Shown piece after piece: positions 34,949-53,096 of a stretch of 64,000 nt of DNA (positions are counted from its first letter, which is position 1; each line of letters starts with the position of its first letter). The stretch covers positions 1 to 64,000 of the forward strand of contig JAIQFG010000013.1 in the NCBI GenBank assembly GCA_020073375.1, written 5' to 3'. The notes under the pieces were generated by a model that was not told the DNA's origin, made no database searches, and worked only from the letters and a program-made list of their open reading frames with translations. Source of the DNA: Terriglobia bacterium (GTDB taxonomy: Bacteria; Acidobacteriota; Terriglobia; Acidiferrales; UBA7541). The position numbers were made by a program, and so were the translations under genes.

Positions 34949-34969
34949 TGGAGGCGGGGGGAGTTGAAC
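34949..34969 (-). repeat. tmRNA 3'-end duplicate (att-like site A)
   Basis: TGGAGGCGGGGGGAGTTGAAC, 21/21 identical to the ssrA 3' end at 52741-52761. Confidence 0.8.
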
Positions 34970-35382
34970 TCTGCGCCCTCGTTGATTCCGCGCAACTTAT
35001 TGAATTTCTTACCCGCCTGAAACGCATGATACTCCGAAGCACCGGGGTGTTTGTACATTTTTTGTACAGAAAAATGAGACAAATTGTGGCGCGAGATCCT
35101 CAAGGCGCGTAACGAGTGAAGATGTGGACATGTGACTGGCATGTACTACTGGGATTATCGCGGAAAGCGAACCACCGCGTTGTCGAGTGGCATTTCCTGT
35201 TTCAGAGTCGCCGCAGGTGATGTCGAATGCCATGCCTGCACATCCAGAACCCCGAGGCAATGAAGGCACGGTCCGGCTAAGTTGAAAGGAACCCGAATGG
35301 CGAACCCTCCGATCCGAGCGCCGATTTGCCAGCGCGATGCCGGTCGGCGCGCCTTTCGCGCCAAGCGCGAATCAATTGATTA

Positions 35383-36363
35383 CTACCCTACCGTGATCAC
35401 GACATTCCCTTTCTTGTGCCCTTGCTCAACATACTTGAAAGCTTCCGTGATCTGCTCCAATGGATAACTTCTGTCGATGACCGCCTTGAGCTTTCGTTCC
35501 GCGGCAAGTTGCATAATGACATTCATTCTTTCCAGGTTCTCCATGGCCACACCGCCCTTTAGTTTCTTACGCCCGGTGATGGAGGTCCATAGGATCCGAA
35601 CCATGTCAGTCAAACCCATAATGTTTTGAAGAAAGATGCCTCGGGACTTCAGCGAGCTTTTGCAGCGATCAAAAGTGGTCGCACCGACGATGTCAAATAT
35701 CAGGTTGTAGGTTTGTCCGTTCTTGGTGAAATCCTCCTTCGTGTAATCGATCACCTTGTCGGCACCCAAGCACTTGACCATTTCCACGTTTGTGCTGCTA
35801 CACACTGCGGTCACGGTTGCCCCAAAGTGTTTGGCCAACTGCACTCCGGCTGAGCCGATGCTTCCCGAAGCTCCTATGATCAGAAGTTCTTGCCCAGCCT
35901 GGATCTTCCCCAGGTCTCGGAGGAAATACAACGCGGTGTTCGCCCCAAACGGAATCGCAACTGCCTCCTCCCAACTCAGCGAATCCGGTTTGATCGCAAT
36001 CGCCCCTGTTTCAGGAAGGCATACGTACTGGGCGTGCCCGCCGCCCATCATGCCGGTCGAGGCGACAATTTGGTCGCCTGCCTTAAACTTCTTCACGTCT
36101 TTACCAACGCCCTCGACCTTCCCGGCCAACTCTGTCCCGAGGACGCGTTCCTTCCAAGGTTTTCCAATGCCAAACATCAGTTTGGCGATCGGGCGCATGG
36201 ATTTGGTAATGAATGTGAAATTGCGGACGTTGCAATCTCCAGTCGAGACAGTGGTCGCGTGTATGGCGATAAGGACTTCGTTGTCCTTAGGGGTGGGTTT
36301 GTCGATCTCTCTTAACTGGAGAAGATCGGGAGGTCCGTATTGGGTGTGCAGAATCGCTTTCAC
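35383..36363 (-). CDS. NAD(P)-dependent alcohol dehydrogenase / quinone oxidoreductase (MDR)
   Basis: MKAILHTQYGPPDLLQLREIDKPTPKDNEVLI, GASGSIGSAGVQLAKHFGATVTAVCSSTN. Confidence 0.85.
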   Translation of the reverse strand: MKAILHTQYGPPDLLQLREIDKPTPKDNEVLIAIHATTVSTGDCNVRNFTFITKSMRPIAKLMFGIGKPWKERVLGTELAGKVEGVGKDVKKFKAGDQIVASTGMMGGGHAQYVCLPETGAIAIKPDSLSWEEAVAIPFGANTALYFLRDLGKIQAGQELLIIGASGSIGSAGVQLAKHFGATVTAVCSSTNVEMVKCLGADKVIDYTKEDFTKNGQTYNLIFDIVGATTFDRCKSSLKSRGIFLQNIMGLTDMVRILWTSITGRKKLKGGVAMENLERMNVIMQLAAERKLKAVIDRSYPLEQITEAFKYVEQGHKKGNVVITVG

Positions 36364-36410
36364 AGGATTTCCTTGGCGGGCGGTGGAAGCAACGGTACTA
36401 CTGGCTCCGC

Positions 36411-37139
36411 CTATGACACGGGCAAATTTTTACCTGCCTTCCGCCACAAACAGAACGCCAGCCATAACGTCCACGGCGCAAATAGCAAGCCCGCTATTGC
36501 GAGTGGGCTTCCTATGAAACCATTGCGTGCAAGGTTGAAGGAATAGGCGATTTGTAGCACTGCAAGCACAATCCCTGACCATCCCAAAAGTTTGGGGTAA
36601 TCGCGGCCCAATGTCATTGCAATCCCGAAGAACAGGAGCGAAATTCCACCGGTTAGTGTCCAGACGCTGCTGAGACCGATCTCGATGTGACGCACAGCCG
36701 CTGCAACCCTGAACGCTTGAGTTTTTTCTATAGCCGAAGCGTTTACCCATTCCTGGGCGACGAACTTTATTGCGACCCCGTCTACCGCCTGATTTGCACC
36801 GTATATGGCTTCGGCCACGAGGGCGACGGCCATCCCGATGCGTGCAAACGTAACACCCCCTCCCTTTACGATCGATCGGTAGAGGGCAAGGAAAGCAATC
36901 AGCATCACAACGTCAGCTGCAAACTGAACCAAGTGAACCAATTCCCAATGCGTGTTCGCAGCATACTGTGGCAGAACGGATGGAAGATCCTCAGGATGGG
37001 TACCCCCGTGAAAGCCCATAGCAACAGCACCTAAGACGAGGGCAAGCACGATCGAAACGGCCCCTAGACGAAAGAGAACGCGGTCGGGCAACGTGGGCGT
37101 TATCGGGGAGGAGTGCTTTTCTGCTTCAATCTTTGTCAT
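36411..37139 (-). CDS. DUF4386-like membrane protein
   Basis: Multi-TM; FARIGMAVALVAEAIYGANQAVDGVAIK..., GLSSVWTLTGGISLLFFGIAM. Confidence 0.55.
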   Translation of the reverse strand: MTKIEAEKHSSPITPTLPDRVLFRLGAVSIVLALVLGAVAMGFHGGTHPEDLPSVLPQYAANTHWELVHLVQFAADVVMLIAFLALYRSIVKGGGVTFARIGMAVALVAEAIYGANQAVDGVAIKFVAQEWVNASAIEKTQAFRVAAAVRHIEIGLSSVWTLTGGISLLFFGIAMTLGRDYPKLLGWSGIVLAVLQIAYSFNLARNGFIGSPLAIAGLLFAPWTLWLAFCLWRKAGKNLPVS

Positions 37140-37310
37140 ACAAAGAAGGTGCTTGGCTCCTCGTAAAACCCTAGCAGGCTACCACATCCACTCAACTGTA
37201 AGGTTTTTCGATGCTGTGCGTCAGCCCTTTTATAAGCGGGCAAGCCCAAACAAAGGGCGGGAAGAACCTAGGGCGTGAATAGCAAATTCAAATCAAAAAG
37301 GAGAAATACA

Positions 37311-37754
37311 ATGAAAGCTCCAAAGATTATCGTAGGGCTCATGCTTGTAGCGGGTGCTGTAAGCGTTGCCAATCTTCCGGCAAAGGAACCGGATACTTGG
37401 CAGACGGGCACGTTAATAGGTCTTGACACCAGGACCACGATAACTGAAGGAATTGGTAACGAACACTACGAGGAACGAGAAACGAAGAACGGAAAGAAGG
37501 TCATCAACGGAAACAGCTATCAGATAGATCAGCCAAAAGTGACGTTCGTATTGACTGTCAGAATTGGTGATATAACTTACACGGTCGAACACATCAAGAA
37601 TCTGTTCTTCGGCTACAACCCAACGGACATGGTAGTAAACGATCCTGTCACTGTTTCTATTCAGAAGGACAAGCTGGTGCTCATTCGGCCCGATGGGAAG
37701 GAATACAAGACAACAATTGTCCGGATCGCACGTAATGAACGACGTGCAGATTAA
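37311..37754 (+). CDS. Hypothetical exported small protein
   Basis: ATG 37311 with ggag SD; MKAPKIIVGLMLVAGAVSVANLPAKEPDTWQTGTLIGL. Confidence 0.6.
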   Translation: MKAPKIIVGLMLVAGAVSVANLPAKEPDTWQTGTLIGLDTRTTITEGIGNEHYEERETKNGKKVINGNSYQIDQPKVTFVLTVRIGDITYTVEHIKNLFFGYNPTDMVVNDPVTVSIQKDKLVLIRPDGKEYKTTIVRIARNERRAD

Positions 37755-37780
37755 CTCCATTACTCTTGAGATGAGAGAAC

Positions 37781-37805
37781 GGGCCGAGGAGAAATGCCTC
37801 GGCCC
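37781..37805. terminator. Hairpin gggccgagg-agaaatg-cctcggccc
   Basis: 9-bp perfect stem downstream of the 37311 ORF; no U-tract on the plus strand. Confidence 0.4.
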
Positions 37806-37846
37806 AAAACACTATTCAGAATCTCCAAACGAGACACGGAGTATGT

Positions 37847-38251
37847 ATGGAATACATGACCGGTATTGGACTCGCACTGCTGACCTGCGTCTTTGCCACA
37901 TTGGTCGGATTTGACCGCGACCGTGTGTTCTATCCGACGCTGCTGGCCCTGATGCCCACCTATTACATTCTGTTTGCTTGTATTGGGGGTTCAACGTCCG
38001 TGTTAGCCGTAGAGTCCTTGTTGGGAGTGGCTTTTTTTGCCGCCGCCGTGGCAGGCTTCAAAAAAAACCTTTGGCTGATTGTGGTCGGCCTCGCCGGGCA
38101 CGGAGTCTTCGACTTCTTCCATCACCTGCTGATTCAGAATCCCGGTGTCCCGAGATGGTGGCCAGGCTTCTGCCTTTCGTTTGATGTTCTCGCCGGCGCT
38201 TTCCTTGCCATGATACTGATGCGACGTACAAGATTCGCGTCGACCTTCTAG
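37847..38251 (+). CDS. Small multi-TM membrane protein
   Basis: 134 aa MEYMTGIGLALLTCVFATLVGFDRDRVFYPTLLALMPTYYILFACIGG...; directly upstream of the sigma gene. Confidence 0.6.
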   Translation: MEYMTGIGLALLTCVFATLVGFDRDRVFYPTLLALMPTYYILFACIGGSTSVLAVESLLGVAFFAAAVAGFKKNLWLIVVGLAGHGVFDFFHHLLIQNPGVPRWWPGFCLSFDVLAGAFLAMILMRRTRFASTF

Positions 38252-38270
38252 ATTACCGGAGAACTAACAC

Positions 38271-38852
38271 ATGGAACGAGAGGCTCGATCTTCTGATTCG
38301 CTTTCACCCGAGGTCATTCAGCGGCTTGTCGAATGTCATCGGCAGTTTCTCGGTTTTCTGGAAAAGCGTGTCGAGTCCCGCGCAGTCGCTGAAGATATCC
38401 TCCAAGACGCCTTTGTCCGAGGGCTGGAACGTGGCGGAGAACTTCAAGGAGAGGAGAGCGCTGTAGCTTGGTTCTATCGAATTCTGCGCAATGCGGTCAT
38501 TGATCATTATCGCCGTCGCGATGCCAAAGGACGCGCCATGGAATCCTTCGCGCGTGAAATGGAAAAATCTGAACAACCTGACGTCGGCTTGGAAACGGAG
38601 ATTTGCGGATGTCTGCTTGGTCTGCTCGATTCGCTAAAAGCCGAATATCGTGATGCGCTGCGAGCGGTGGATTTGGGCGATGAGAGCATGGAAGTGCTAG
38701 CCCGCAGCGCGAATATCTCTTCCGGCAACGCCGCAGTTAGGGTCCATCGAGCCCGTCAAGCACTCCGCGAACGCGTGCGCACAGCTTGCGGCACATGTGC
38801 CGAGCATGGCTGCCTTGACTGTCATTGCAAGACGGCGTCCGGCAAGTGCTAG
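38271..38852 (+). CDS. ECF sigma factor with Cys-rich C-terminal tail (CorE-like architecture)
   Basis: Region 2 EDILQDAFVRGLERGG...AWFYRILRNAVIDHYRRRDAK; region 4 ARSANISSGNAAVRVHRARQALRERV; tail CGTCAEHGCLDCHCKTASGKC. Confidence 0.8.
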   Translation: MEREARSSDSLSPEVIQRLVECHRQFLGFLEKRVESRAVAEDILQDAFVRGLERGGELQGEESAVAWFYRILRNAVIDHYRRRDAKGRAMESFAREMEKSEQPDVGLETEICGCLLGLLDSLKAEYRDALRAVDLGDESMEVLARSANISSGNAAVRVHRARQALRERVRTACGTCAEHGCLDCHCKTASGKC

Positions 38853-38868
38853 CATTTGGTTATAAGAA

Positions 38869-38896
38869 AGAGAGGGAGCCGTTTGGCTCCCTCTCT
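38869..38896. terminator. Bidirectional-type hairpin agagagggagcc-gttt-ggctccctctct
   Basis: 12-bp perfect stem between convergent genes. Confidence 0.6.
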
Positions 38897-38908
38897 GAAC
38901 GATGTTGC

Positions 38909-39070
38909 TTAGTCGCAGCAGCCGCACGCGCAACCACAACCGCACCCATCGCCGCAATTACAATCACTGGCGCACGAAGCCGCAGTCTTGCAGTTGCAAC
39001 TGGCTCCGCAGGAGCAGTGAGAGCCTTCCTGGCAACGGCAGCTATTTCGATCATTGGAGTTCTTTGTCAT
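38909..39070 (-). CDS. Metallothionein-like Cys-rich peptide
   Basis: 53 aa MTKNSNDRNSCRCQEGSHCSCGASCNCKTAASCASDCNCGDGCGCGCACGCCD; 15 Cys, mostly CxC. Confidence 0.65.
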   Translation of the reverse strand: MTKNSNDRNSCRCQEGSHCSCGASCNCKTAASCASDCNCGDGCGCGCACGCCD

Positions 39071-39292
39071 TTGAGTTTTCCTTTCTGGTTCAGCGCCGCT
39101 TATCGCGCTGTTCATAAGTGCTGACGCAGAGGGTCGACTTTGATTACACTCCTTTTTTGAAGAATGAGCGGGGCACGGAACAGTTTCGTTTGCGGGATGC
39201 CGCAGAAAGGAAGATCTGCTGTTTGCAGGATTGGTGTTTGTACACTCAACCCTTGGGTGCGCCTTACCTCATGAAATTACATGGGTTAAAAG

Positions 39293-39424
39293 TGGAGGCG
39301 GGGGGAGTTGGAATAAGAAGATCTGTTGAAAACAAATAAGTTGCTAATTTTTCAATACGCTCAAAACGCACAGGACTCAGGAATTGCGGTTTTCACACAC
39401 GTAATACACACGCGAAAATTCTCT
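39293..39424. repeat. 132-bp direct repeat, copy 1: tmRNA 3'-end core plus shared cassette end (att-like site B)
   Basis: TGGAGGCGGGGGGAGTTG matches the ssrA 3' end (18 nt); the rest aligns gap-free to 46176-46307 with about 12 mismatches counted by eye. Confidence 0.85.
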
Positions 39425-39914
39425 CCAGGCGCTCCAAACAACGCACGAAATATGTTGATTGCGAAGTGGTAGATGAGGTTAACTTCCGGTTAGCGCATGA
39501 TCCGACCAGAATTGGTCGCGAGCGTCACTGAAGCTTGCAACTTCCCACAAGCGGACTTCTGGCCCGGAAAGGCTATTGTCCAATTTCCGATTTGCGCATA
39601 ATACGGCCATTGACCGGTTTTCACCTCGCCGGGACGCGACTGGCAATCGCCAGGTGATTTATCAAGGCTGATCCGGAGAAATGCGACCAAACCCGATAGT
39701 TGCGATAGCAGCTCACTGTACCGAGGCGTTCCCAATCTGCGCTAACAATTCTTGATGGCTGATATTGCAAAGATCGTTTGATGTCAGCATCCTCCGAAAA
39801 TTACTCTAACCATAACTAGCGGGCGTTGCAGAACAGGATCGCAGCTCCATCGATTAACAGCAATGACCAGGCGCGGGGACCCCAGTTGGCGTTTCCGTTG
39901 ATTTCTGAAATTGT

Positions 39915-40934
39915 TTATCCAGCCGATATCGGTAGAGGAATCGGCGACACTTTGCGTTCATTTCTGTAACGGGCTGGAGGTAAGCCAAATTCGCGCTTGA
40001 AAGCACGATTGAACGCGGCCTCTGATTCGTAGCCAACATCCGCAGAGATTTCGGCGATCCCGCGAGGGGTTGTGTTGAGCAAGCGCGCGGCGAGCTGTAG
40101 CCGCCAGCGCATTAAGTAGGTTATGGGTGGCTCTGAAAGGTATCGATTGAATCGCTCCAATAAGGTCGTACGTGAAAGTCCGACTTCCTTCGCGAGGTCA
40201 GCCAGGGTCCACGGAAAATCCACTCGACTGTGTAGAATCGCCAGACACTTTCCCACGATCGGATCGCGGGCGGCAGCGATCCATCCCGATTCCAGCTCTG
40301 GAAGCGCCTCGATGTATCTCCGCAATGTGTCGACAAACAATGCCTCGGAGAGCTTTGACAGCATGGCCTCGCTGCCAGCCCGTCCTGATGCTGTTTCCTC
40401 TACAAGGTGGAGAATCGAGTTCTCCAGCCATTGGCCCGAGCGATCGGTTCTAAGGCTGACTTTGAAAATCTTGGGAAGTCCTTCCAGGATCGGTTTGGAC
40501 AACAGAGGGTCGAATGCCATGTACCCACAGATGAAGCGCGTGACCTCACCGCATCCTCCGGCCTTCATCGGAGTCAAATCGTGCCTTATGAACTTCTGGA
40601 TAATCGCCGAGATCTCCACCGCCGGGACGCCCATGCCGCTGCCCATCTGATGCGCATGTCCATGCGGGAAAATAACCACCTCTCCTGCTTCCATCGAAAG
40701 GGCCCCGCCTTCGTTCAAGCGAACCTTAGCCCTGCCTTCGAGCAGGAGATGATAGACGATGAGATGAGGTGCTCCGGGTGAAAGGGTGGGAGCAATTTTG
40801 CTGGATTCCGGAGCTGAGATCTGCCACGGCGCCGAGAACTCCGCTCTGAAAAACACTGCGCCCTTCAGTTTGACTCCGCTCAGGATTTCGGAAAAAGCGT
40901 CCATCAATGAATGCTCCGGATTCGCGGCAAACAT
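39915..40934 (-). CDS. AraC family transcriptional regulator (cupin_6 N-terminal domain)
   Basis: C-terminal HTH LADLAKEVGLSRTTLLERFNRYLSEPPITYLMRWRLQLAARLL...IAEISADVGYESEAAFNRAFKREFGLPPARYR. Confidence 0.9.
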   Translation of the reverse strand: MFAANPEHSLMDAFSEILSGVKLKGAVFFRAEFSAPWQISAPESSKIAPTLSPGAPHLIVYHLLLEGRAKVRLNEGGALSMEAGEVVIFPHGHAHQMGSGMGVPAVEISAIIQKFIRHDLTPMKAGGCGEVTRFICGYMAFDPLLSKPILEGLPKIFKVSLRTDRSGQWLENSILHLVEETASGRAGSEAMLSKLSEALFVDTLRRYIEALPELESGWIAAARDPIVGKCLAILHSRVDFPWTLADLAKEVGLSRTTLLERFNRYLSEPPITYLMRWRLQLAARLLNTTPRGIAEISADVGYESEAAFNRAFKREFGLPPARYRNERKVSPIPLPISAG

Positions 40935-41069
40935 TATCGGGACCGCTGCAAAGAGATCTGCCTAGATTGGACTCAGAGTCAATGAACCCGTGCTGCTGAG
41001 CATGGTCAAGCCCTCGGATACTGCATAGGATTCTACCCGTGGCGCACAAATCGCGCAACAATCCTGAAA

Positions 41070-42095
41070 TTGAAAGGGAGGGAAATGACAATGAATCCAT
41101 TTAGCACGACTACCGCTTTTCCAATTCAGTCTGAACAATACGCGAGCACCGTGGCAGCTTCGAAGCGCGTCCGTTGGGACATCGATCGAGACGTCATCCG
41201 CGGCCGCGATTTTGATATGGACCACAAACTGCTACCGGACTCGATCTCCGGAATCCGGCAATTTGAATTTCTGGATAAACCGGAAACGCGAATGCTGAGC
41301 CAGATCCAAGGACGCACCTATGCGAACATGTTCGGCTTGGTAGAACGTTTCATCAATTGCAAGGTTCTTGAATTGAGCCGGCATCACTGCACCGGCGATC
41401 AAGTCGCGCTGGAGGCGCTCATTCGCTTCAGCGACGAAGAGCTCAAGCATCAGGAGCTGTTCCGCCGCATTGAACAAATGATCGCCGGGAAGATGCCCTC
41501 GGGGTATCACTTTGTGGCGCAACCGAACGAAGTGGCGAGCGCGGTACTGTCGAAGTCTACTTGGTCGGTGATGGGGTTGACGTTGCTGATTGAGCTCTTC
41601 ACGCAAACCCACTACCTCAAAAGCATCGAGCCCGACCAGGAATGCTCTCCGCTTTACAAAGACGTTTTTCTGTATCACTGGAAAGAAGAATCTCAGCACG
41701 CGAGAATCGACGAACTCGAGTGGATTCGCGTGAATGCATTGATGTCGCCCGAAGAACGTGACCGCGCGGTAGACGACATGATCGAACTGGTGATGGCCGT
41801 GGACGGTATCGTACGAGCCCAGGCGGCAGCCGACCTCGACTACTTCTTGAAGATAAGGGGCGGCGCATTCTTTGAGGAGAACATCGCGCGCCTGCATGAG
41901 GGCGTGCTAGCGGCCTACCGCTGGCAGTACATTCTATCGGGTGCCGGAGAACGGCGCTTTCAGAAGGTTTTGCGAAGCTTGACCACGGACGATCAGCTCC
42001 GGCGCATCGAAGAGGCGATCGCGCCCCTTGCGGCCCTTGCCGAGCCGGTCGAGAAGGCGACGAATCGTGCTCAACCCATCCATGTCAGCACCTAA
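41070..42095 (+). CDS. Ferritin-like / diiron protein of unknown function
   Basis: Paired ExxH motifs DEELKHQELF and KEESQHARIDELEW in a helical protein. Confidence 0.6.
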   Translation: MKGREMTMNPFSTTTAFPIQSEQYASTVAASKRVRWDIDRDVIRGRDFDMDHKLLPDSISGIRQFEFLDKPETRMLSQIQGRTYANMFGLVERFINCKVLELSRHHCTGDQVALEALIRFSDEELKHQELFRRIEQMIAGKMPSGYHFVAQPNEVASAVLSKSTWSVMGLTLLIELFTQTHYLKSIEPDQECSPLYKDVFLYHWKEESQHARIDELEWIRVNALMSPEERDRAVDDMIELVMAVDGIVRAQAAADLDYFLKIRGGAFFEENIARLHEGVLAAYRWQYILSGAGERRFQKVLRSLTTDDQLRRIEEAIAPLAALAEPVEKATNRAQPIHVST

Positions 42096-42295
42096 GCCCA
42101 GTAAGCATCGGCAGAAATGCCAGGCTTTGCTTCCCTCGACGCCAGAGGCAGTGAGAGTCTTCGCCGGGAGCTCGACGCGCTGTGGTCTTCTCACAATAGA
42201 GCTGGCCTGGGTTCCACCACCGTCTTCGCTGAATATCTGGAAGTGATTGGAGTTCGATCTTAGATGAAGTTTCAGCCGTTTATAAAGGAGATCTA

Positions 42296-43063
42296 GTGAA
42301 CAACCCACATGAACTGGTCCAACATTTGGAGAAAAACCCCCAATTGCCCAAGGGGGGTGGCGATATACTTTCCGTTTACGGCGTCGAGTCATGCCCGTTC
42401 GCCTCGGGCGATATCCTGTGTAGCCGGCACGTCCTGGCTTCATCGTTCGGTCCGGCGTACACGGCCGTTTGGCATCGTGATCCGGACGGCGACTGGCACT
42501 TCTATCAAGATGTTCCGCCTCGGCAAGGCTGCGCGCGCTTTTTCGGCAAAGCGCTTGCAGACATCACTGTGCGGCCGATAGAGACCCACTGGGACGGACC
42601 ACGGCGGCTGCGCATCGTTGTGCCAGGTCGTATTGAGTGGCAGTTCGATCTCAGTTCGACGCTCGCTACACGGGCGATGAACCTAATGGGGAGCTTGATG
42701 CCCGACACTCTTTGGAAGAATCCAACTGTCCTGGCCGCAATGGCGCCTGTCGCAGGCGTTGCTTTGGGGGCGGGTAAACTGCGGTTGACCGGCCGGGCGC
42801 CGAACGGCCAAAGCTTCATCGCAAACCCGCTGTGGATTTGGACAGTGCCCAGCGCCAAGGCTACCATCGACGGGCGCAACCTTGGTGCGGTTATGCCTAT
42901 GGGGGAACAATCCAAGCTGGGCGACTTCTGGATACCGCGCACCGGGCTGTTCGCGATCGGTCGTGCGTTCTTCGATGCATTCGACCCGGAGATTCATTCT
43001 GCAGCAACAAGTCGAACCGAGTATGCAGCATCTGATTCATCAACAAAGTTCGCTGCCGCATAG
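42296..43063 (+). CDS. Hypothetical protein
   Basis: 255 aa, GTG start preceded by ggag SD (aaaggagatctagtg). Confidence 0.6.
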   Translation: MNNPHELVQHLEKNPQLPKGGGDILSVYGVESCPFASGDILCSRHVLASSFGPAYTAVWHRDPDGDWHFYQDVPPRQGCARFFGKALADITVRPIETHWDGPRRLRIVVPGRIEWQFDLSSTLATRAMNLMGSLMPDTLWKNPTVLAAMAPVAGVALGAGKLRLTGRAPNGQSFIANPLWIWTVPSAKATIDGRNLGAVMPMGEQSKLGDFWIPRTGLFAIGRAFFDAFDPEIHSAATSRTEYAASDSSTKFAAA

Positions 43064-43137
43064 CAATTGAGTCGTTCCAGCGTGGGCAGCGAATCGCTGG
43101 TCGACCAAAATCCCAGAATAATAAAAGGAGACAAAAT

Positions 43138-43665
43138 ATGTCATCACAGACCACGGCCACTCACAAAATCAAGGGCTCCATAGGTCGTCGGGCGGAATTA
43201 TTGGCGGATCGCATCGAGGAAGGCGCTGCCGGCCTAGCTGCCTTTGCTGAAGGACTATCGGAAGTGGATTGGAGTACGCCGGTGTCAGGATCGGACCGTC
43301 GTCCGGTCGGTGTCACCGTGCACCATGTCGCGAGCGTTTATCCTATTGAGGTTGATCTCGCGCGGGCAATCGCCAGCGGCAAGGCCGTTACGGATGTCAC
43401 GTGGGAAGTTGTCGCCCAGTTGAACGGAAAACATGCACAGGAAAATGCCGGGGTGACCAAAGCTGCCGCGCTTGAGCTCTTGCGCCGGAACAGCCGTGAG
43501 GCGGCTGCTGCGGTCCGCGCGTTCACGGATGAAGAATTGGATCGTGCCGCGCCATTCTCGCTAAGTTTCGGCGCGCCTGTCACCGCGCAGTTCGTCATTG
43601 AGGATCATGCACTCAGGCACAGCTGGCACCACTTGGCGCGCATACGCACAGTTTTGGGCCGGTGA
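43138..43665 (+). CDS. DinB/MDMPI-like superfamily protein
   Basis: Four-helix pattern with His triad (VTVHHVASVYP ... EDHALRHSWHHLARI); aaaaggag SD. Confidence 0.65.
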   Translation: MSSQTTATHKIKGSIGRRAELLADRIEEGAAGLAAFAEGLSEVDWSTPVSGSDRRPVGVTVHHVASVYPIEVDLARAIASGKAVTDVTWEVVAQLNGKHAQENAGVTKAAALELLRRNSREAAAAVRAFTDEELDRAAPFSLSFGAPVTAQFVIEDHALRHSWHHLARIRTVLGR

Positions 43666-43669
43666 CCTT

Positions 43670-44500: not shown

Positions 44501-46041
44501 CGAAAGAATCTGCAACAAAAGAGTCATTCGTGAATGGCGATTCCGACCGGCATGCGCCGCTCGCGATGGACGCCGCGACTTTTCGCGAGCTGGGACACCG
44601 ACTCGTAGACCAGGTTGCTGGGTTTCTCGAATCATTGCCACTTGGTCCTGTGACGCGTGATGAGTCTCCGTTGGTGGTGCGCGACGCACTCGACCTCATA
44701 GGTCCACTCCCGCAATTAGGGATGGATCCGGCGGCGCTACTGGAACAGACGGCGCAATTTCTCTTCAGTAATTCACTTTTCAATGGACACCCGCGTTTCT
44801 TCGGATACATCACCGCGCCACCGGCGCCGATCGGGATCCTCGGCGACTTTCTCGCGGCCGCGGTGAACCCTAACGTTGGCGCATGGACACTCTCGCCAGC
44901 TGCCACCGAAATTGAATCTCAAACCGTGCGATGGATCGCCGAACTCATTGGCTACCCCGTAGATTGTGGCGGGCTGCTCCTCAGCGGCGGCAATATGGCG
45001 AACTTCGTCTGCTTCCTGGCTGCACGCACAGCCAAGGCGGGTTGGGATGTCCGCGAGCGCGGCGTTTCTGGAGATTCGGGCCACAGGCTTCGCGTGTACT
45101 GCTCGGGCGAAACGCACACTTGGATTCAGAAGGCCGCAGACCTTGGCGGCCTCGGTACTGAATCAATCCGATGGATTGCCACCGACGGGAAACTACGGAT
45201 GGACGTCGCCGCGTTACGCCATCAAATCGAAGCGGATACCGCAGGGGGGGATGTCCCATTCCTAGTCGTCGGAACTGCTGGATCGGTCAGCACCGGGGCG
45301 GTCGACCCTCTTCCAGAGATAAGCGCACTCTGCAAAGAGTACGGGATCTGGTTCCACGTCGACGGAGCCTATGGTGGCTTTGCGGCCGCGGTTCCTCAGG
45401 CGCCCGACGATTTACGAGCGCTGAGCCAAGCCGATTCGGTCGCAGTTGATCCGCACAAATGGCTCTACGCGCCGCTCGAAGCCGGATGCGCGCTGGTGCG
45501 CGACCCGGAGGCGCTGCGCGCGGCGTTCGCGTATCACCCGCCGTACTATCATTTCGAGGAGCGCGTGACGAACTACGTCGACTATGGTCCCCAGAACTCG
45601 CGCGGTTTCCGTGCCCTTAAAGTGTGGCTTGCCCTGAAGCATGCCGGAGCCGCCGGGTATCGCAAGATGATCGCCGACGATATTCGCCTGTCTCAAGCCA
45701 TGGCTCAGGCGGTCAGCCGCCATGCGGATTTGCAGCTCATGACCCAGGATTTGAGCATTACGACCTTCCGCTTCGTGCCGCGCGATCTTCGAACGAATCT
45801 CACAAAACCGCAGGTGGAACTTCATCTCGACGCGCTCAACCGTGAGCTAGTCGATCGGCTGCAGCGCGGAGGTGAAACATTTGTCTCCAACGCCGTAGTC
45901 AGCGGCCACTACGTGTTGCGCGCCTGCATTGTGAACTTTCATACCGCTCAAACGGACGTGGAAGCGGTGCCGGACATCGTCGCGCGAATCGGCCACATGG
46001 TGGATGCTGAGCTGCGCCCGACGAATTCACAGCCCGAATAG
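44497..46041 (+). CDS. PLP-dependent group II decarboxylase (aromatic-L-amino-acid decarboxylase-like)
   Basis: GTG start overlapping the PIG-L stop; HPRFFGYITAPPAPIGILGDFL, WFHVDGAYGGFAA, DPHKWLYAPLEAGC (PLP-Lys motif). Confidence 0.88.
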   Translation: MTKESATKESFVNGDSDRHAPLAMDAATFRELGHRLVDQVAGFLESLPLGPVTRDESPLVVRDALDLIGPLPQLGMDPAALLEQTAQFLFSNSLFNGHPRFFGYITAPPAPIGILGDFLAAAVNPNVGAWTLSPAATEIESQTVRWIAELIGYPVDCGGLLLSGGNMANFVCFLAARTAKAGWDVRERGVSGDSGHRLRVYCSGETHTWIQKAADLGGLGTESIRWIATDGKLRMDVAALRHQIEADTAGGDVPFLVVGTAGSVSTGAVDPLPEISALCKEYGIWFHVDGAYGGFAAAVPQAPDDLRALSQADSVAVDPHKWLYAPLEAGCALVRDPEALRAAFAYHPPYYHFEERVTNYVDYGPQNSRGFRALKVWLALKHAGAAGYRKMIADDIRLSQAMAQAVSRHADLQLMTQDLSITTFRFVPRDLRTNLTKPQVELHLDALNRELVDRLQRGGETFVSNAVVSGHYVLRACIVNFHTAQTDVEAVPDIVARIGHMVDAELRPTNSQPE

Positions 46042-46175
46042 GCCGGCGCTGCCTAGGTGAAGCTGATCGGCCCGTGCCACTCGCTCGAAATGCAAAGTAA
46101 TCCTCGGACCGTCGTCCGCATAGATGAATCTAGGCCTCTTAAATGCATCTAAACTATTCATTATAACGTATTTAT

Positions 46176-46307
46176 TGGAGGCGGGGGGGGGTGGAATAAG
46201 AAGGTCTGTTGAAAACAAATAAGTTGCTGATTTTTCAATACGCACGAAACGCTCTGACCTCAGGAATTGCGGTTTTCACACACGTAATACACACGCGGAG
46301 ATTCTCT
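46176..46307. repeat. 132-bp direct repeat, copy 2 (att-like site C)
   Basis: See 39293-39424; core slightly decayed (TGGAGGCGGGGGGGGGTGG). Confidence 0.85.
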
Positions 46308-46320
46308 GGCGCGAGGGAAC

Positions 46321-46908
46321 TCACGGCACGGTGACAACGATCGCAGCGCAGGGCTTCCGGCTTACTCGCCGGTAAGAATGCGGCAGCGAGGAATCGAAAT
46401 AGATCGAGTCTCCTGAATCGAGGATGTGGTCTTCCGTTCCGATATGCAACTCCAACTTTCCGCGAAGGACCGATAGGAACTCGACACCGGGATGATGATG
46501 CGGGCGGGCCTTTCCGGGCTGGAGAGGCTGGAACTCGGCATGGTAAGCGTTCAGCTTGCGCTCCACGGCAGCAAAGTCCAGCGATTCAAAATAGAAAGAA
46601 ATATCACGCCCATCGGGCCTTTCTGGGAAACGCTTGCGCTGGCCACGACGGACGATCCCAACAATGTGCCGCTTCTGGTCGTCAGAGAAAAAGTACTCTA
46701 GGCCAACACTGAATACCAAGGAGATGCGCAAAAGCGTCGGCAGGGTTGGGAAAAGTTTCCCACGCTCAACCTTGGAAAGCATCGCCGCCGACAAGCCTGT
46801 GTGCCGGCCCAATTCAACGAGTCCCATCTTCTTTTTCAGGCGCAGCGCGCGCAGCTTATCTCCAATGGCGTACTCGCTCAATCCCTTAGCCAGCGTGTCT
46901 GACAGCAC
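46321..46908 (-). CDS. XRE-family regulator with C-terminal cupin domain
   Basis: IGDKLRALRLKKKMGLVELGRHTGLSAAMLSKVERGKLFPTLPTLLRIS; cupin PHHHPGVEFLSVLRGKLELHIG. Confidence 0.88.
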   Translation of the reverse strand: MLSDTLAKGLSEYAIGDKLRALRLKKKMGLVELGRHTGLSAAMLSKVERGKLFPTLPTLLRISLVFSVGLEYFFSDDQKRHIVGIVRRGQRKRFPERPDGRDISFYFESLDFAAVERKLNAYHAEFQPLQPGKARPHHHPGVEFLSVLRGKLELHIGTEDHILDSGDSIYFDSSLPHSYRRVSRKPCAAIVVTVP

Positions 46909-47065
46909 GAATTCCCTCCGTATTTAACCAGGAAGCAAAAAGTTCACGAAGATTTAACTCCGAATTACTCGACTTTGATTTTCGCGCGTATTTGCCTTGC
47001 AGTCAAACTATTTATCTCTATAGTTAAAAATGTTGTGAGCAACAAACACTTAAAGTCTGGAGGAA

Positions 47066-47308
47066 ATGATGATGAAGAAATTGGACATTCTCGCAGCCAT
47101 CCTTGTGGTGGTAGGTGCGCTCAACTGGGGATTGGTGGCTGTCGCTCGTTTCGACCTGGTAGCAGCAATCTTCGGAATGAAGTTCGGGGAAATCTCGGTA
47201 TTCAGCGGAATCGTCTACGGACTCGTCGCTCTGGCGGGACTCTATCAGGGACTGGGTTGGAAGGCTATTCAACACCGGTGGCACGGGGAGCCAGCGCTCC
47301 AGCGTTAG
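47066..47308 (+). CDS. DUF378 family membrane protein
   Basis: KLDILAAILVVVGALNWGLVAVARFDLVAAIFG...IVYGLVALAGLYQ; aggagg-like SD. Confidence 0.8.
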   Translation: MMMKKLDILAAILVVVGALNWGLVAVARFDLVAAIFGMKFGEISVFSGIVYGLVALAGLYQGLGWKAIQHRWHGEPALQR

Positions 47309-47540
47309 CGATAGCCGCGTTGAATTTTCAGAACCGAAGCGACCGATTCAAAGTGATTAGGACAGATATCCTCCGCAGCAGCGGCCTCATTGACTCTGTT
47401 GTGTTTCCGAAGTAGGTCCGCAAGAGGTCTTATGGGGCCCCGTTCAGAAACTGCATGGGGCCCCGTATTACCTGCGATTGCAAGAGATACCGAAAAGTTC
47501 TTGGCGAGAGTGAAGGAAGCGCCATCGAGAGGAGATAGAT

Positions 47541-48161
47541 ATGATTTTGGAGTCCGAAATCCAGAAAAACCAAAACATTGCTTTGCTTTTGGAAGAGGGG
47601 ACGCGGACGGATCGGTTGGAGTCGATTATCCGTGAATTGATTACGGAACTCGGGATGGATCTTGCCGACCAACACTTTAAGGGGACTCCAGCAAGGGTGG
47701 CACGCCTTTATCGTGAACTCACTCGAGGACAGCGTCTGAATCCTGCTGCTATTCTGAAAACCTTTCACTCGAAACACAGTGAGCTCATCGTCGTTTCGGA
47801 TATCAATTTTTACTCTCTGTGCCCGCATCATTTACTTATTTATCGGGGAAAGATGCATTTCGGCTATTTGCCGGACGGTAGGATCGTGGGCCTATCCAAG
47901 ATTCCCCGCTTGATTCAGACAATGGCGTCCCGCCCCATCGTACAAGAAGACCTTGTGTCAGAGATCGCGGATACTTTCATGTCGGTTGTGAAGCCGTTGG
48001 GTTGTGTGGCTCGCGCTACAGGCAGGCACGACTGCGTTGCCGTCCGCGGAGTGAAATGCCATGAGGCTCAGATGACAACCGTAGCCTTGCGAGGCCTCTT
48101 TCGCGAAAAATCTTCGCTGGTGGAAGAGTTTCACCAGGTCTTAACGAGGGTCGATAAGTAG
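47541..48161 (+). CDS. folE: GTP cyclohydrolase I
   Basis: SICPHHL-type LCPHHLLIYRGKMHFGYLPDGRIVGLSKIPRLIQ; CVAVRGVKCHEAQMTT. Confidence 0.9.
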   Translation: MILESEIQKNQNIALLLEEGTRTDRLESIIRELITELGMDLADQHFKGTPARVARLYRELTRGQRLNPAAILKTFHSKHSELIVVSDINFYSLCPHHLLIYRGKMHFGYLPDGRIVGLSKIPRLIQTMASRPIVQEDLVSEIADTFMSVVKPLGCVARATGRHDCVAVRGVKCHEAQMTTVALRGLFREKSSLVEEFHQVLTRVDK

Positions 48162-48237
48162 CTTGCTCATTGTGCCCGGGATTGAATTGCGAGAATCGAG
48201 AGACTACTCTGGAGCTTACATTCTGTCCAAATCATCT

Positions 48238-48690
48238 ATGCGACTTATTTTGTGCATCGTAGTTTGCCTTGGAGCTGCAGGGCTCGGGTCGTTATGGACC
48301 ACGCCAGCGCTTCGCCCGTGGTATGCCAGTTTGAGCAAGCCCCGCTGGACTCCTCCCAATTGGCTATTTGGGCCTGTCTGGACAATCTTGTACGTAGCGA
48401 TGGCAATCGCAGCTTGGCTGGTTTGGTGGAGGGTTGGACTGACAGCAGTTCCGATGCAACTCTTCCTGCTGCAATTGCTGCTCAATGTCGCGTGGTCCGC
48501 ACTGTTTTTTCGGCTGCGAGCTCCGGGCGCAGCCTTTGCCGAAATCGTCATGCTGTGGTTGGCCATCCTGGCGACATCCATCGAATTCTGGAGAGTAGTT
48601 CCGGCCGCAGGCTGGTTGCTCTTGCCTTATTTGATCTGGGTTAGCTATGCGACAGCGCTCAACTTTTCAATTTGGCGGTTGAACGCCTGA
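48238..48690 (+). CDS. TspO/MBR family protein
   Basis: WYASLSKPRWTPPNWLFGPVWTILYVAMAIAAWLVW...NVAWSALFF. Confidence 0.9.
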   Translation: MRLILCIVVCLGAAGLGSLWTTPALRPWYASLSKPRWTPPNWLFGPVWTILYVAMAIAAWLVWWRVGLTAVPMQLFLLQLLLNVAWSALFFRLRAPGAAFAEIVMLWLAILATSIEFWRVVPAAGWLLLPYLIWVSYATALNFSIWRLNA

Positions 48691-48721
48691 TCGTGTTCGA
48701 TACGACTAAAGGAATATCTCA

Positions 48722-50218
48722 TTGAGCTCAGTTCCCGCGATTCGCATTAGGTCTGGCAACTCCTTGCCAGTGCGGCAGGATGGAGATTTTGTCCTGTACT
48801 GGATGATTGCCTCCCGCAGGGTGACCTGGAATTTTGCGTTGGACCGAGCTGTGGAGTGGGCCGAGAAGCTGCAGAAACCGTTGGTTATCTTGGAAGCGTT
48901 GCGCTGCGGCTATCCCTGGGCGAGCGAACGGATTCATCGTTTTGTGCTCGATGGAATGGCAGAGAATGCCTGTTGGCTTGAGGGCACGGACGTTCTCTAC
49001 TATCCGTACCTGGAGCCTGAACCAAATGCAGGCAAAGGAATGCTCGCCGCTTTGGCATCGCGTGCCTGTGTTGTGGTGACGGACGATTTCCCCTGTTTTT
49101 TCCTGCCGCGCATGGTCGCCTCCGCGGCTCGGCAGGTCCGAGTGCTCATAGAGGTGGTGGACTCGAATGGCCTTCTTCCGATGCGGCAAGCGGAGAGAGC
49201 CTATCCAACCGCGTACGCTTTTCGCCGGTTCCTGCAAAAAGAGCTTCCGCGACATTTGGGGGAATTTCCCAAGGCGAATGCACTCTTGAACGCAAAGCTG
49301 ACGAAAGCAACAGTCCTTCCCTTTGAGGTACTGAAGCGATGGCCGAAGGTTTCTCCTCGACTCTTGAACTCTGGTGACAGGGTGCTGGCCAGTATATCTT
49401 TGGATCACGAGATTCCCGCGGTGGAAACGCGAGGGGGAAGCACGCCCGCTCAAGTACTGTTGAGAGACTTCCTGCGAAATAAGTTTGCAAGCTACGTTGA
49501 GGCGCGAAATGAACCCGAGGAAAATGTGACCAGTGAACTGTCTCCTTATCTCCACTTTGGCCATATTTCGGTGCACCAGATTTTTTCGGAACTCACAACA
49601 CAAGAAGGCTGGTCCCCGGACCACCTCGCCCTACGCACAACGGGCAGCCGTTCTGGCTGGTGGGGTGCTAGCCAGAACACTGAAGCGTTCCTGGATCAAG
49701 TCATTACCTGGCGGGAGCTCGGCTTCAATTGTTGCCAGATGCGAAAGGATTATGACCAATTCGAATCGCTGCCAGCATGGGCTCTGAAGACTCTTCGACT
49801 GCATACACGTGATGAGAGGTCCTACGTCTACACTCTTGAGAAGTTTGAGCGTGCCAAAACGCACGACCCACTTTGGAATGCTGCGCAGACACAATTGCTC
49901 CGAGAGGGACGAATCCACAATTACCTTCGCATGCTATGGGGAAAGAAAATATTGGAATGGACGCGGTCTCCCGCGAAGGCGCTCGAAATCATAGTGGAGC
50001 TGAACAATAAGTATGCACTCGATGGTCGCGACCCCAATTCTTACAGTGGGATTTTCTGGTGCCTGGGGCGCTATGACCGTCCCTGGGGCCCGGAGCGGCC
50101 TGTTTTCGGGACGGTTCGTTACATGAGTTCAGAAAATACTGCGCGCAAGTTTAATGTCCGTGGCTACATCCGGAAATACAGTTCTCCTTCTTATGAAGGC
50201 GTGACCCTTGGGCAATGA
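48722..50218 (+). CDS. phr: Class II-type deoxyribodipyrimidine photolyase
   Basis: DGDFVLYWMIASRRVTWNFAL; LSPYLHFGHIS; LRMLWGKKILEWTRSP...LNNKYALDGRDPNSYSGIFWCLGRYDRPWGPERPVFGTVRYMSSENTARKF. TTG start. Confidence 0.88.
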   Translation: MSSVPAIRIRSGNSLPVRQDGDFVLYWMIASRRVTWNFALDRAVEWAEKLQKPLVILEALRCGYPWASERIHRFVLDGMAENACWLEGTDVLYYPYLEPEPNAGKGMLAALASRACVVVTDDFPCFFLPRMVASAARQVRVLIEVVDSNGLLPMRQAERAYPTAYAFRRFLQKELPRHLGEFPKANALLNAKLTKATVLPFEVLKRWPKVSPRLLNSGDRVLASISLDHEIPAVETRGGSTPAQVLLRDFLRNKFASYVEARNEPEENVTSELSPYLHFGHISVHQIFSELTTQEGWSPDHLALRTTGSRSGWWGASQNTEAFLDQVITWRELGFNCCQMRKDYDQFESLPAWALKTLRLHTRDERSYVYTLEKFERAKTHDPLWNAAQTQLLREGRIHNYLRMLWGKKILEWTRSPAKALEIIVELNNKYALDGRDPNSYSGIFWCLGRYDRPWGPERPVFGTVRYMSSENTARKFNVRGYIRKYSSPSYEGVTLGQ

Positions 50219-51653
50219 TTCTAAATTGATCTTGCTGACAGGCGCGAGTGGCTATGTCGGTGGGCGTTTACTTCACGCGCTCGAAGCTGCCGCCTACCGC
50301 GTGCGTTGCTTGTCACGCCATCCCGACGCTCTAAGACAGCGCGTCGCCCAGACAACGGAAGTTGTAAAAGGTGATGTTCTCGACCCGGCGTCTGTTGCCG
50401 CTGGCATGGTTGGCGTGCACACCGCCTATTACCTGGTACATTCGATGGCCTCGGCAAACTCTTTTGAAGCGGAAGACCGTCGTGCGGCGCATGCGTTTGC
50501 AGTTGCGGCCTGCGATGCAGGCGTACAGCGCATCATCTATCTCGGCGGACTCGGCAATGGCAGTGAACTATCGGCACATTTGAGAAGCCGTCAGGAAGTC
50601 GGGCGCATTCTGAGAGAGTCTGGGGTAGTGACCATTGAGTTTAGGGCCGCGATTGTCATTGGGTCGGGCAGCGCTTCCTTCGAAATGATCCGGGCCCTGG
50701 TCGAGAAACTGCCGGTGATGATCACGCCACGCTGGGTCAATACCAGCACACAGCCAATTGCGGTCGAGGATGTGATTGCTTATCTGAAGCAAGCGCTGGA
50801 TCTGGAAATCAACGGCAGCAGGATTATTGAGATCGGTGGATCTGACCAGGTCACCTACTTGGATCTCATGAAAGAATACGCCCGCCAGCGTGGGCTGAAA
50901 CGTTGGATGATTTCCGTACCAGTGCTCTCTCCACGACTGTCGAGCCTCTGGTTGGGCCTTGTGACACCTGTCTATGCGCGTGTGGGCCGCGAGTTAGTGG
51001 ACAGCTTGCGCAACGAAACGATTGTGAGAGATGTATCTGCGAATGATCTGTTCTCGATTCGACCGCTTGGGTCTCGCGAAGCTCTGAAGCGAGCGCTCGC
51101 CAATGAGGATCGGGAATTTGCGGAAACGCGCTGGTCCGACGCATTCTCGTCCCTCGGTGCAGCACATCAGTGGGGTGGACCCAAATTTGGTCGGCGCACA
51201 GTGGATTCCCGATCAGTGCACGTGCCATTTCCCCCGGCCATTGCCTTTCGACCTATCGAGCGGTTGGGAGGCAAGACTGGTTGGTACTATGGGAATTGGC
51301 TGTGGCGAATTCGCGGGCTGCTAGATCTGCTGTTCGGCGGTGCGGGCATGCGTCGCGGGCGACGTGATCCGGACCGGTTGTTGGCAGGTGATACGCTCGA
51401 CTTCTGGCGTGTCGAAGAGATCCAAACTGACCGCCTGCTTCGACTGGGGGCAGAAATGCGCCTGCCTGGCAGGGCATGGCTGCAATTTGAGGTCGAACCG
51501 GACGGATCGGGATCGGTCGTTCGCCAAACAGCGATTTTTGATCCTGTCGGCGTGCTGGGGCAACTCTACTGGTACCTCTTATATCCGATGCATCAATTTG
51601 TGTTTGCCGGAATGCTTAGAGGTATTGTGGAAGCGATGGGAGAATCGCATTGA
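50208..51653 (+). CDS. SDR/NAD(P)H-binding protein with DUF2867-like C-terminal domain
   Basis: ILLTGASGYVGGRLLHALEAAAYRVRCLSRHP; WYYGNWLWRIRGLLDLLFGGAGMRRGRRDPDRLLAGDTLDFWRVEEI. The 5' end overlaps phr. Confidence 0.85.
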   Translation: MGNDSKLILLTGASGYVGGRLLHALEAAAYRVRCLSRHPDALRQRVAQTTEVVKGDVLDPASVAAGMVGVHTAYYLVHSMASANSFEAEDRRAAHAFAVAACDAGVQRIIYLGGLGNGSELSAHLRSRQEVGRILRESGVVTIEFRAAIVIGSGSASFEMIRALVEKLPVMITPRWVNTSTQPIAVEDVIAYLKQALDLEINGSRIIEIGGSDQVTYLDLMKEYARQRGLKRWMISVPVLSPRLSSLWLGLVTPVYARVGRELVDSLRNETIVRDVSANDLFSIRPLGSREALKRALANEDREFAETRWSDAFSSLGAAHQWGGPKFGRRTVDSRSVHVPFPPAIAFRPIERLGGKTGWYYGNWLWRIRGLLDLLFGGAGMRRGRRDPDRLLAGDTLDFWRVEEIQTDRLLRLGAEMRLPGRAWLQFEVEPDGSGSVVRQTAIFDPVGVLGQLYWYLLYPMHQFVFAGMLRGIVEAMGESH

Positions 51654-52615
51654 CCCTCTTCCCAAAACCCAAAATTGTCGTTAGCAAGTGCATTGGTTTT
51701 GATCCCTGCCGATACAATGGGGAGATCGTACGGGACAAGTTTGTCGCGCGCCTCGAACCCCATGTCGACTTCCTTTGTGTCTGCCCCGAAGTCGAAATCG
51801 GATTAGGGACCCCGCGGGATCCAATCCGCGTCGTTTCCTCCGGCAAGGATTTCAAACTTATTCAACCCGCCTCGGGCCTGGACGTTTCACGCAAAATGCG
51901 GGAATTCACCTCGGAGTTTCTCGGCGACTTGAAAGAAGTAGACGGTTTCATTCTTAAGAGCAGATCGCCGTCTTGCGGCTTCACGGATGTGAAGTTGTAT
52001 GCAGGTCCGGAAAAAGGCCCTTGTATCGGCAAAGGGGCCGGTTTTTTCGGAGGCGCCGTCCTGGAAAAGTTCGGCGACCGCGCGGTTGAAGACGAGGGCC
52101 GCCTGCTGAATCTGAACATCCGCGAGCATTTTCTGACGCGTGTATATGCCTTTGCCCGCTTTCGCGAGCTGCGGCGATCCTCTTCTATGCGCGATCTGAT
52201 CGGCTTTCATGGGGCGAACAAGCTGCTTCTGATGGCTTACAACCAGACAAAAATGCGGGAGCTCGGCAGGATTGTCGCGAATGGAGATGGAAAACGGATC
52301 CCTGCGGTCTTCGATCTGTACGAGAAATCCTTTTGCGAGGCGTTTCACAAACCCCCGAGGCATGCATCGCCCATCAACGTCCTCATGCACGCCCTCGGCT
52401 ATTTCAAGAAGGAACTATCCGCGCGCGAAAAGAGGCACTTCCTCGGGATGTGTGAAGCGTACCGGCGCGGAAAGACGCCCTTGAGCAGCGCTGTCAGCGT
52501 ACTCGGATCCTGGGTCATACGCTTCGAGTCCGTGTATCTGCAAGAACAAACATTCTTCCATCCTTTTCCGGCGGACCTCATGGCGCTCGATGATTCTGGT
52601 AGAGGCCGGGTTTGA
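51650..52615 (+). CDS. DUF523 + DUF1722 (YbgA-like) protein
   Basis: VSKCIGFDPCRYNGEIV...CPEVEIGLGTPRDPIRV; FRELR..SMRDLIGFHGANKLLLMAYNQTKMRELG. Confidence 0.85.
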   Translation: MTLFPKPKIVVSKCIGFDPCRYNGEIVRDKFVARLEPHVDFLCVCPEVEIGLGTPRDPIRVVSSGKDFKLIQPASGLDVSRKMREFTSEFLGDLKEVDGFILKSRSPSCGFTDVKLYAGPEKGPCIGKGAGFFGGAVLEKFGDRAVEDEGRLLNLNIREHFLTRVYAFARFRELRRSSSMRDLIGFHGANKLLLMAYNQTKMRELGRIVANGDGKRIPAVFDLYEKSFCEAFHKPPRHASPINVLMHALGYFKKELSAREKRHFLGMCEAYRRGKTPLSSAVSVLGSWVIRFESVYLQEQTFFHPFPADLMALDDSGRGRV

Positions 52616-52740
52616 GCGCGGGTTTTCCATGGTGCCATGTCTAGAACTCATTCTGTCGAAGCACAGCTAGTGCTTACCGCCTAGCACGCTAGAAGAGGCA
52701 GGCCGATGTGTGCGTAATCCATTGATTCTAAAGTAGTTTG

Positions 52741-53096
52741 TGGAGGCGGGGGGAGTTGAACCCCCGTCCGAAAAGCGCTACGGCTCGAAGCCTACATGCT
52801 TAGCTCTATTCCGTTTTTTTCGCCTGCCGCGCTCAGAATGAGCAAGAAACGCAGCTGGCTAGTCCGATTGGTTCTCGCCGTCTTGTTCCGGACCGAAACT
52901 TGACGGCCAGCCTACTGTGTGACGTTTCTTGCCGGGCCCGTAGGCGAAGCCCGGGGAAACGTAGCTAGCCTAATTTAAGTTAGGCAGCCAATGCCAATTG
53001 TTGATTGGCAGTTCTAGTTTTCCACCCGATTGAGGGCAGGTGGCGCCCTGCATGCCTTCGAGTCGCGACAGCTTCCGTCGAAACCGTGTCGCCCCC
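52741..53096 (-). ncRNA. ssrA: Transfer-messenger RNA (tmRNA)
   Basis: 5' GGGGGCGACACGGTTTCGACGG...; tag frame GCC AAT CAA CAA TTG GCA TTG GCT GCC TAA (ANQQLALAA); 3' GGACGGGGGTTCAACTCCCCCCGCCTCCA; acceptor GGGGGCG/CGCCUCC; CCA not encoded. Confidence 0.96.

Follow-up and report, generated by a model that had tools for sequence, protein, structure and literature searches.

The window analysed here, 64,000 nucleotides of contig JAIQFG010000013.1 from a Terriglobia bacterium, contains the transfer-messenger RNA (tmRNA) gene ssrA (tag ANQQLALAA) and three cassettes, which lie in tandem downstream of the 3′ end of ssrA and are bordered by copies of that end. A pattern scan of the window located TGGAGGCGGGGGGAGTTGAAC at 34949 (21 of 21 bases), at 39293 (all 18 bases of the core, with two changes over 21) and at 52741, and a degenerate core, two of whose 18 bases are changed, lies at 46176. 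One hundred shuffles yielded no match to TGGAGGCGGGGGGAGTTGAAC, which rules out a chance origin of the repeats. Elsewhere in the 5.3-Mb genome, a draft of 176 contigs that is 94.7% complete (hereafter G000), there are two isolated core sites with two mismatches each, on other contigs; a reversed control pattern gave one. The cores split 34949–52740 into back-to-back segments A, B and C of 4344, 6883 and 6565 bp, with GC contents of 0.525, 0.570 and 0.542, compared with 0.604 and 0.610 in the flanks, the decrease in B being only modest. Each segment carries metabolic or stress genes and one regulator: an extracytoplasmic function (ECF) sigma factor in A, an AraC-type protein in B and a helix-turn-helix (HTH)-cupin protein in C (Table 1). 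The initial annotation had reported the core repeats, the three adjoining segments, their lower GC and a regulator in each; all of these hold, and the serial site-specific accretion behind ssrA that it proposed is supported.

The similarity at each junction extends beyond the 18–21-nt repeat to a module of about 130 bp that comprises the core, a conserved box and, at about +101, two iterons 11 bp apart. The outer arm of a lambda-type phage attachment site (attP) is built in this way. To the right of the core, B and C are alike over about 120 bp at 92% identity, and sequence related to their ends also lies behind ssrA in two other genomes (G001 and G003), where the intervening DNA is unrelated. 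With an iterated profile, 26 ends were identified among the loci retrieved, one of them being the junction at 34949, and their alignment displays the core, about 15 bp, a box like TTGAAAACACGYAASTTATTGATT...ACGC..AAAACGC and then the two iterons. An iteron match at a lag of 11, in which eight or all of the nine bases agree and which lies near +100 relative to the core, is present in 23 of 28 outer ends as opposed to 0.14 in shuffles, and other lags occur in zero to two ends. As the 28 ends are mutually related, the 23 do not represent 23 independent events, yet the lag stays constant across iteron types of different sequence. These types include CTGGAACG, GGTACACGG, CACACACG (B and C of the window, where 7 of 9 bases match at lag 11), TTTGTACA (A) and CTTACGT.

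The 8-mer TTTGTACA has only three copies in the 64 kb, all at arm positions of cassette A (+101, +112 and −56). Integrase-bearing islands in three genomes (G033, G021 and G007) display inner iterons at about −67 and −56; cassette A has the outer arm and one inner iteron of the two. Weak inner boxes are present in C (TAATCCATTGATT at −25, p ~0.016) and in B (TAAACTATTCATT, p ~0.06), both p values being relative to the end's own shuffles and uncorrected for the 45 ends tried. Paired iterons in such a layout have the look of the arm sites of lambda-type tyrosine integrases, and we infer from their arrangement that they are putative arm sites for the N-terminal domain of an integrase.

Table 1 Features of the ssrA-proximal array (window coordinates)
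Feature	Position	Strand	Remarks
Cassette A	34949–39292		4.3 kb
Outer att module of A	34949–35076	+	core 34949–34966, box, TTTGTACA at 35050 and 35061; profile match 4e-22
Zinc alcohol dehydrogenase family protein	35383–36363	−	A
ORF without assignment	36411–37139	−	A; unmatched
ORF without assignment	37275–37754	+	A; unmatched
ORF without assignment	37847–38251	+	A; unmatched
ECF sigma factor	38271–38852	+	A
ORF without assignment	38825–39124	+	A
Inner iteron TTTGTACA of A	39237–39244	+	−56 from core at 39293
Cassette B	39293–46175		6.9 kb
Outer att module of B	39293–39423	+	core 39293–39310, box, CACACACG-type iterons at ~39394 and ~39405
AraC-type regulator with cupin	39915–40934	−	B
Weakly AurF-like protein	41070–42095	+	B
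ORF without assignment	42296–43063	+	B; unmatched
DinB-like protein	43138–43665	+	B
PIG-L deacetylase	43598–44500	+	B
Pyridoxal phosphate (PLP) decarboxylase	44326–46041	+	B
Cassette C	46176–52740		6.6 kb
Outer att module of C	46176–46306	+	core 46176–46193 (2 changes), box, CACACACG-type iterons at ~46277 and ~46288
HTH-cupin regulator	46321–46908	−	C
ORF without assignment	46975–47415	+	C; unmatched
folE-type GTP cyclohydrolase I	47541–48161	+	C
TspO	48163–48690	+	C
Class II photolyase-like Phr2	48722–50218	+	C
NAD-binding/DUF2867 protein	50208–51653	+	C
DUF523/DUF1722 protein	51650–52615	+	C
ssrA	52740–53096	−	tmRNA gene; attB core in 3′ end; ARAGORN
Attachment core within ssrA 3′ end	52741–52758	+	inner border of C; core pattern match
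ORF, open reading frame; unmatched, see main text.

A model built from the sequence of these ends has matches in 59 of the 89 genomes of the family and in 126 of 399 genomes of the class (Terriglobia, Acidobacteriota). The ends are located behind ssrA and behind the genes for tRNA-Cys, Leu, Lys, Phe, Ser and Met, and the named records with an ssrA-type end are metagenome-assembled genomes of Acidobacteria or Terriglobia, one being labelled Verrucomicrobia. Among the 39 cassettes that could be resolved (both borders found, core match of at least 12 of 16), a tyrosine integrase adjoins the RNA gene in 10 and is lacking from 29, a share that is biased as short cassettes close more easily in draft assemblies and a few borders lie on weak ends. 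The median size is 6.9 kb with the integrase and 4.3 kb without it. The resolved cassettes have a convergent partner RNA gene whose 3′ end matches the core. The window array has the same end organisation, with core, box and paired iterons facing a convergent tmRNA gene. A search of open-access papers, which left subscription literature outside its scope, yielded no prior description of this island family, and the family is apparently undescribed.

The integrases of the family form a clade of the Phage_integrase tyrosine type, adjoin ssrA or a tRNA gene and are convergent with it. Clade members are found at E ≤ 1e-30 in 32 of the 89 family genomes, G000 not being one of them, and on no plasmid at E 1e-20. 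The absence of a recombinase from the array, noted in the initial annotation, was confirmed: the main ORFs of A–C contain no integrase, transposase or relaxase according to Pfam (and, for subsets, NCBIfam and PHROGs), and tblastn with ten clade integrases detected no integrase remnant. A search of the genome for an integrase fitting the core, which the annotation had recommended, found none of the relevant clade in this 94.7% complete draft. The 13 Phage_integrase genes of G000 were rejected as candidates, since none belongs to the clade and those alignments that span at least 200 residues are 20–29% identical to it. Because the clade integrase is missing from both the array and G000, A–C are non-autonomous members of the family.

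How integrase-less forms may arise is suggested by three relatives (L239, L212 and L261, and weakly by L197), in which only the last 40–60 or so integrase codons are left, at the inner end where the inner arm sits. These remnants have the structure expected of a deletion of the integrase gene that spared the att site. The idea that the cassettes have lost int therefore applies to some relatives, in which the last integrase codons remain, but not demonstrably to A–C, which contain no such remnant. A further integrase-less member, of 1.5 kb (L221, G005), has matched iterons at both ends. Integrase-bearing islands at two loci of one genome (L237, G094:C19; L258, G094:C94) carry CACACACG-type arms, the type of B and C in the window, and carry them on both sides; locus L237 contains two integrase-bearing islands in tandem at tRNA-Phe. 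In two other islands (L039:774-2054, G033; L031:733-2004, G021) the integrase frame crosses the att core into tmRNA sequence, with the tail ...GGGGGSRTPV..., and the C-terminus would therefore differ between the integrated and the circular form.

Related integrases are also encoded by phages. In the cultured acidobacterial phage Tunturi_4 (PP885687.1, L281:5640-6010), a temperate phage, the attP beside a related integrase (35% identity) consists of a tRNA-like core, the same box and CTTTCCCAA iterons, which are 11 bp apart and lie on both sides of the core; the integrase gene points away from attP. On a viral contig of 58.9 kb, int is accompanied by a tRNA-like core, a similar box and iterons at lag 11, arranged as in the islands, albeit with a weak profile match (E 0.004). 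Relatives of the clade integrase are present in thirteen viral contigs, and an exact pattern found no ssrA-type end in viral contigs. As Tunturi_4 and this 58.9-kb contig combine an integrase with this attP layout, helpers acting in trans are plausible, as is, judging from sequence, the mobilisation of the cassettes by them.

Neither conjugation genes nor phage structural genes were recognised in the cassettes. With regard to a possible phage-satellite nature, ten cargo proteins were compared with PHROGs, and the matches were no more than generic (alcohol dehydrogenase, sigma factor, transcriptional regulators and epimerase-like proteins); defence cargo was rejected on the basis of zero PADLOC matches among ten cargo proteins. 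Searches of Pfam, NCBIfam, PHROGs and PADLOC at E 0.001 returned nothing for the five ORFs labelled unmatched in Table 1, some of which may not be genes. The operon of cassette C (folE-tspO-phr2-NAD-binding) has a counterpart, 86% identical over most of its length, at another locus of a same-genus genome (L266, G005:C36), on a contig for which no end-model match is listed. Considering the different location of this operon in G005 and the presence of the cassette C photolyase in 10 of 89 genomes, the cargo is patchy.

Genomes of the same genus have DNA in common upstream of ssrA but hardly any downstream of it, the homology ending at 52740 or 52736. In relatives, alternative cassettes lie behind the same core, as the initial annotation had anticipated. 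Two species-level genomes (G068 and G073) contain a 4.7-kb integrase-less cassette that is 97–99% identical in the main aligned blocks, and this homology stops exactly at the core, beyond which the genomes differ.

Combining these findings, we consider it very probable that 34949–52740 is a tandem array of three integrase-less islands that accreted site-specifically at the ssrA 3′ end and belong to a Terriglobia island family; A–C are best read as derivatives of tRNA/tmRNA islands that resemble cis-mobilizable elements (CIMEs). In this model, autonomous members of the family carry a tyrosine integrase directly beside, and convergent with, the target tRNA or tmRNA gene, together with a lambda-type attP in which the core has a putative arm site on its outer and on its inner side, both consisting of two iterons at a spacing of 11 bp. 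Most likely, a clade integrase, at that time the element's own or supplied by another island or a phage, placed each element at the 3′ end of ssrA. Insertion would leave a core at the outer border, and repeated insertion would stack the elements. In relatives, deletion of int accounts for at least a part of the integrase-less forms. Integrase-less members keep the outer att module and, in some cases, also the inner arm with the last codons of the lost integrase, and their later movement would depend on matching integrases elsewhere. Cassette A could be movable in trans, whereas B and C may be stranded because they have kept the outer iterons and have no recognisable inner ones.

Several observations weigh against this interpretation. 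A joined empty site, which the initial annotation had expected behind ssrA in related genomes, was looked for and not found, and B and C have no inner iterons at lag 11. Homology of the left flank within the genus ends at about 34772, 177 bp before the core at 34949, and on a contig of G001 (C110, 77268-170959) the left flank and ssrA are 93.7 kb apart, compared with 18 kb in the window; the remaining same-genus genomes have the left flank on contigs other than that of ssrA. The spacing suggests that G001 gained a large insertion or that the window genome underwent a deletion or rearrangement, and a rearrangement at the left border of the array is possible. Furthermore, G000 is a draft, from whose assembly alone an integrase could be absent.

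The chances are about even that the cassettes are decayed remnants, i.e. ordinary integrase-bearing islands that were inserted serially, were each deprived of int by a later deletion and have become a fixed part of the chromosome. The last integrase codons in L239, L212 and L261, the degenerate core at 46176, the missing inner iterons of B and C and the lack of a clade integrase in G000 all agree with decay, but the outer modules and iterons are intact in A, B and C, an inner iteron is kept in A, and A–C contain no remnant of int. A somewhat doubtful alternative shares the anatomy of the accretion model and differs in placing mobility in the present and not in the past: the integrase-less elements would be a stable class that is currently mobilised in trans by the integrases of autonomous islands or temperate phages, comparable to the clusters of attC sites lacking integron-integrases (CALINs) and their dependence on integrons. 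It draws on the 29 of 39 resolved members that lack int, the matched iterons at both ends of L221 and the iteron at −56 of cassette A, the CACACACG-type arms flanking the G094 islands, the attP layout common to Tunturi_4 and a viral contig, and the near-identical cassette in G068 and G073. That near-identity, however, extends into the flank (91% on the left) and may reflect shared descent of the locus; G000 has no helper integrase, and B and C have no inner iterons. It is very improbable that short repeats in the draft of 176 contigs caused unrelated fragments to be joined, as dozens of independent genomes, and a complete phage genome as well, show the same architecture. A class-wide acidobacterial system, in which integrase-less islands with interchangeable arm-site types at tRNA and tmRNA genes stay mobile through the integrases of other islands and of temperate phages with a common attP layout, and in which the docking site and not the enzyme is the inherited unit, is a speculative and rather unlikely extension of the accretion model.

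Islands are usually found via their integrases, the starting point of Islander-type surveys, and the att module of about 130 bp finds them without one. As most resolved members lack an integrase, a large part of the mobile genes in this dominant phylum of soil bacteria would escape surveys that rely on integrases. A testable code that pairs cassettes with the integrases able to move them, and perhaps with phages that can do so, is suggested by the iteron types.

Among known systems, tycheposons, which the initial annotation had invoked, are cargo elements bordered by tRNA sequence, and those described have a tyrosine recombinase (PMC10872708 and references there); they did not prove to be the nearest relative, although it is by description only that they are set apart. 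CALINs (PMC11389934) resemble the window array in having no integrase of their own; such arrays may depend on an integrase encoded elsewhere. They and integrons would differ from it in the anatomy of the ends, which in the window lie at an RNA gene and resemble the arm-and-core modules of phages, and in its multi-gene cassettes. Islander-type islands (PMC4383910) share the 3′ end of a tRNA or tmRNA gene as the target and, in autonomous members, the tyrosine integrase, whereas most resolved Terriglobia members have none. Tunturi_4 (PP885687.1; PMC11924767) has a related integrase, a tRNA-like core, the same box and 11-bp-spaced iterons on both sides, but it is an 88-kb phage genome and the cassettes have no recognised phage structural genes. 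CIMEs lack integration and transfer genes, retain attL and attR and form tandems by accretion (PMC5704250). A–C likewise have neither integrase nor relaxase (Pfam, main ORFs). Their putative att sites comprise a core and an outer arm in each cassette, and an inner arm is recognisable in A alone, as one iteron of two. Classic CIMEs derive from integrative and conjugative or integrative and mobilizable elements, while A–C have no recognised conjugative or relaxase genes.

In Dehalococcoides, tandem islands with borders of a 20-bp direct repeat lie downstream of ssrA; 15 of 31 lack the integration module and were suggested to be cis-mobilizable, and the integrase gene dsiB overlaps the att site (PMC3146451). 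The window array is likewise tandem behind ssrA, most resolved family members lack an integrase, and the integrases in G033 and G021 overlap att. The Dehalococcoides islands, however, use a CcrB-like serine recombinase (DsiB) in a six-gene module, whereas the Terriglobia family, in another phylum, has a tyrosine integrase, paired arm iterons and several tRNA targets. The Terriglobia family thus works like the Dehalococcoides ssrA islands but is not one of them. Tandem ssrA islands without integration genes were already known from Dehalococcoides; what is new is their tyrosine-integrase version in Terriglobia, which extends this picture to a second phylum and a different class of recombinase.

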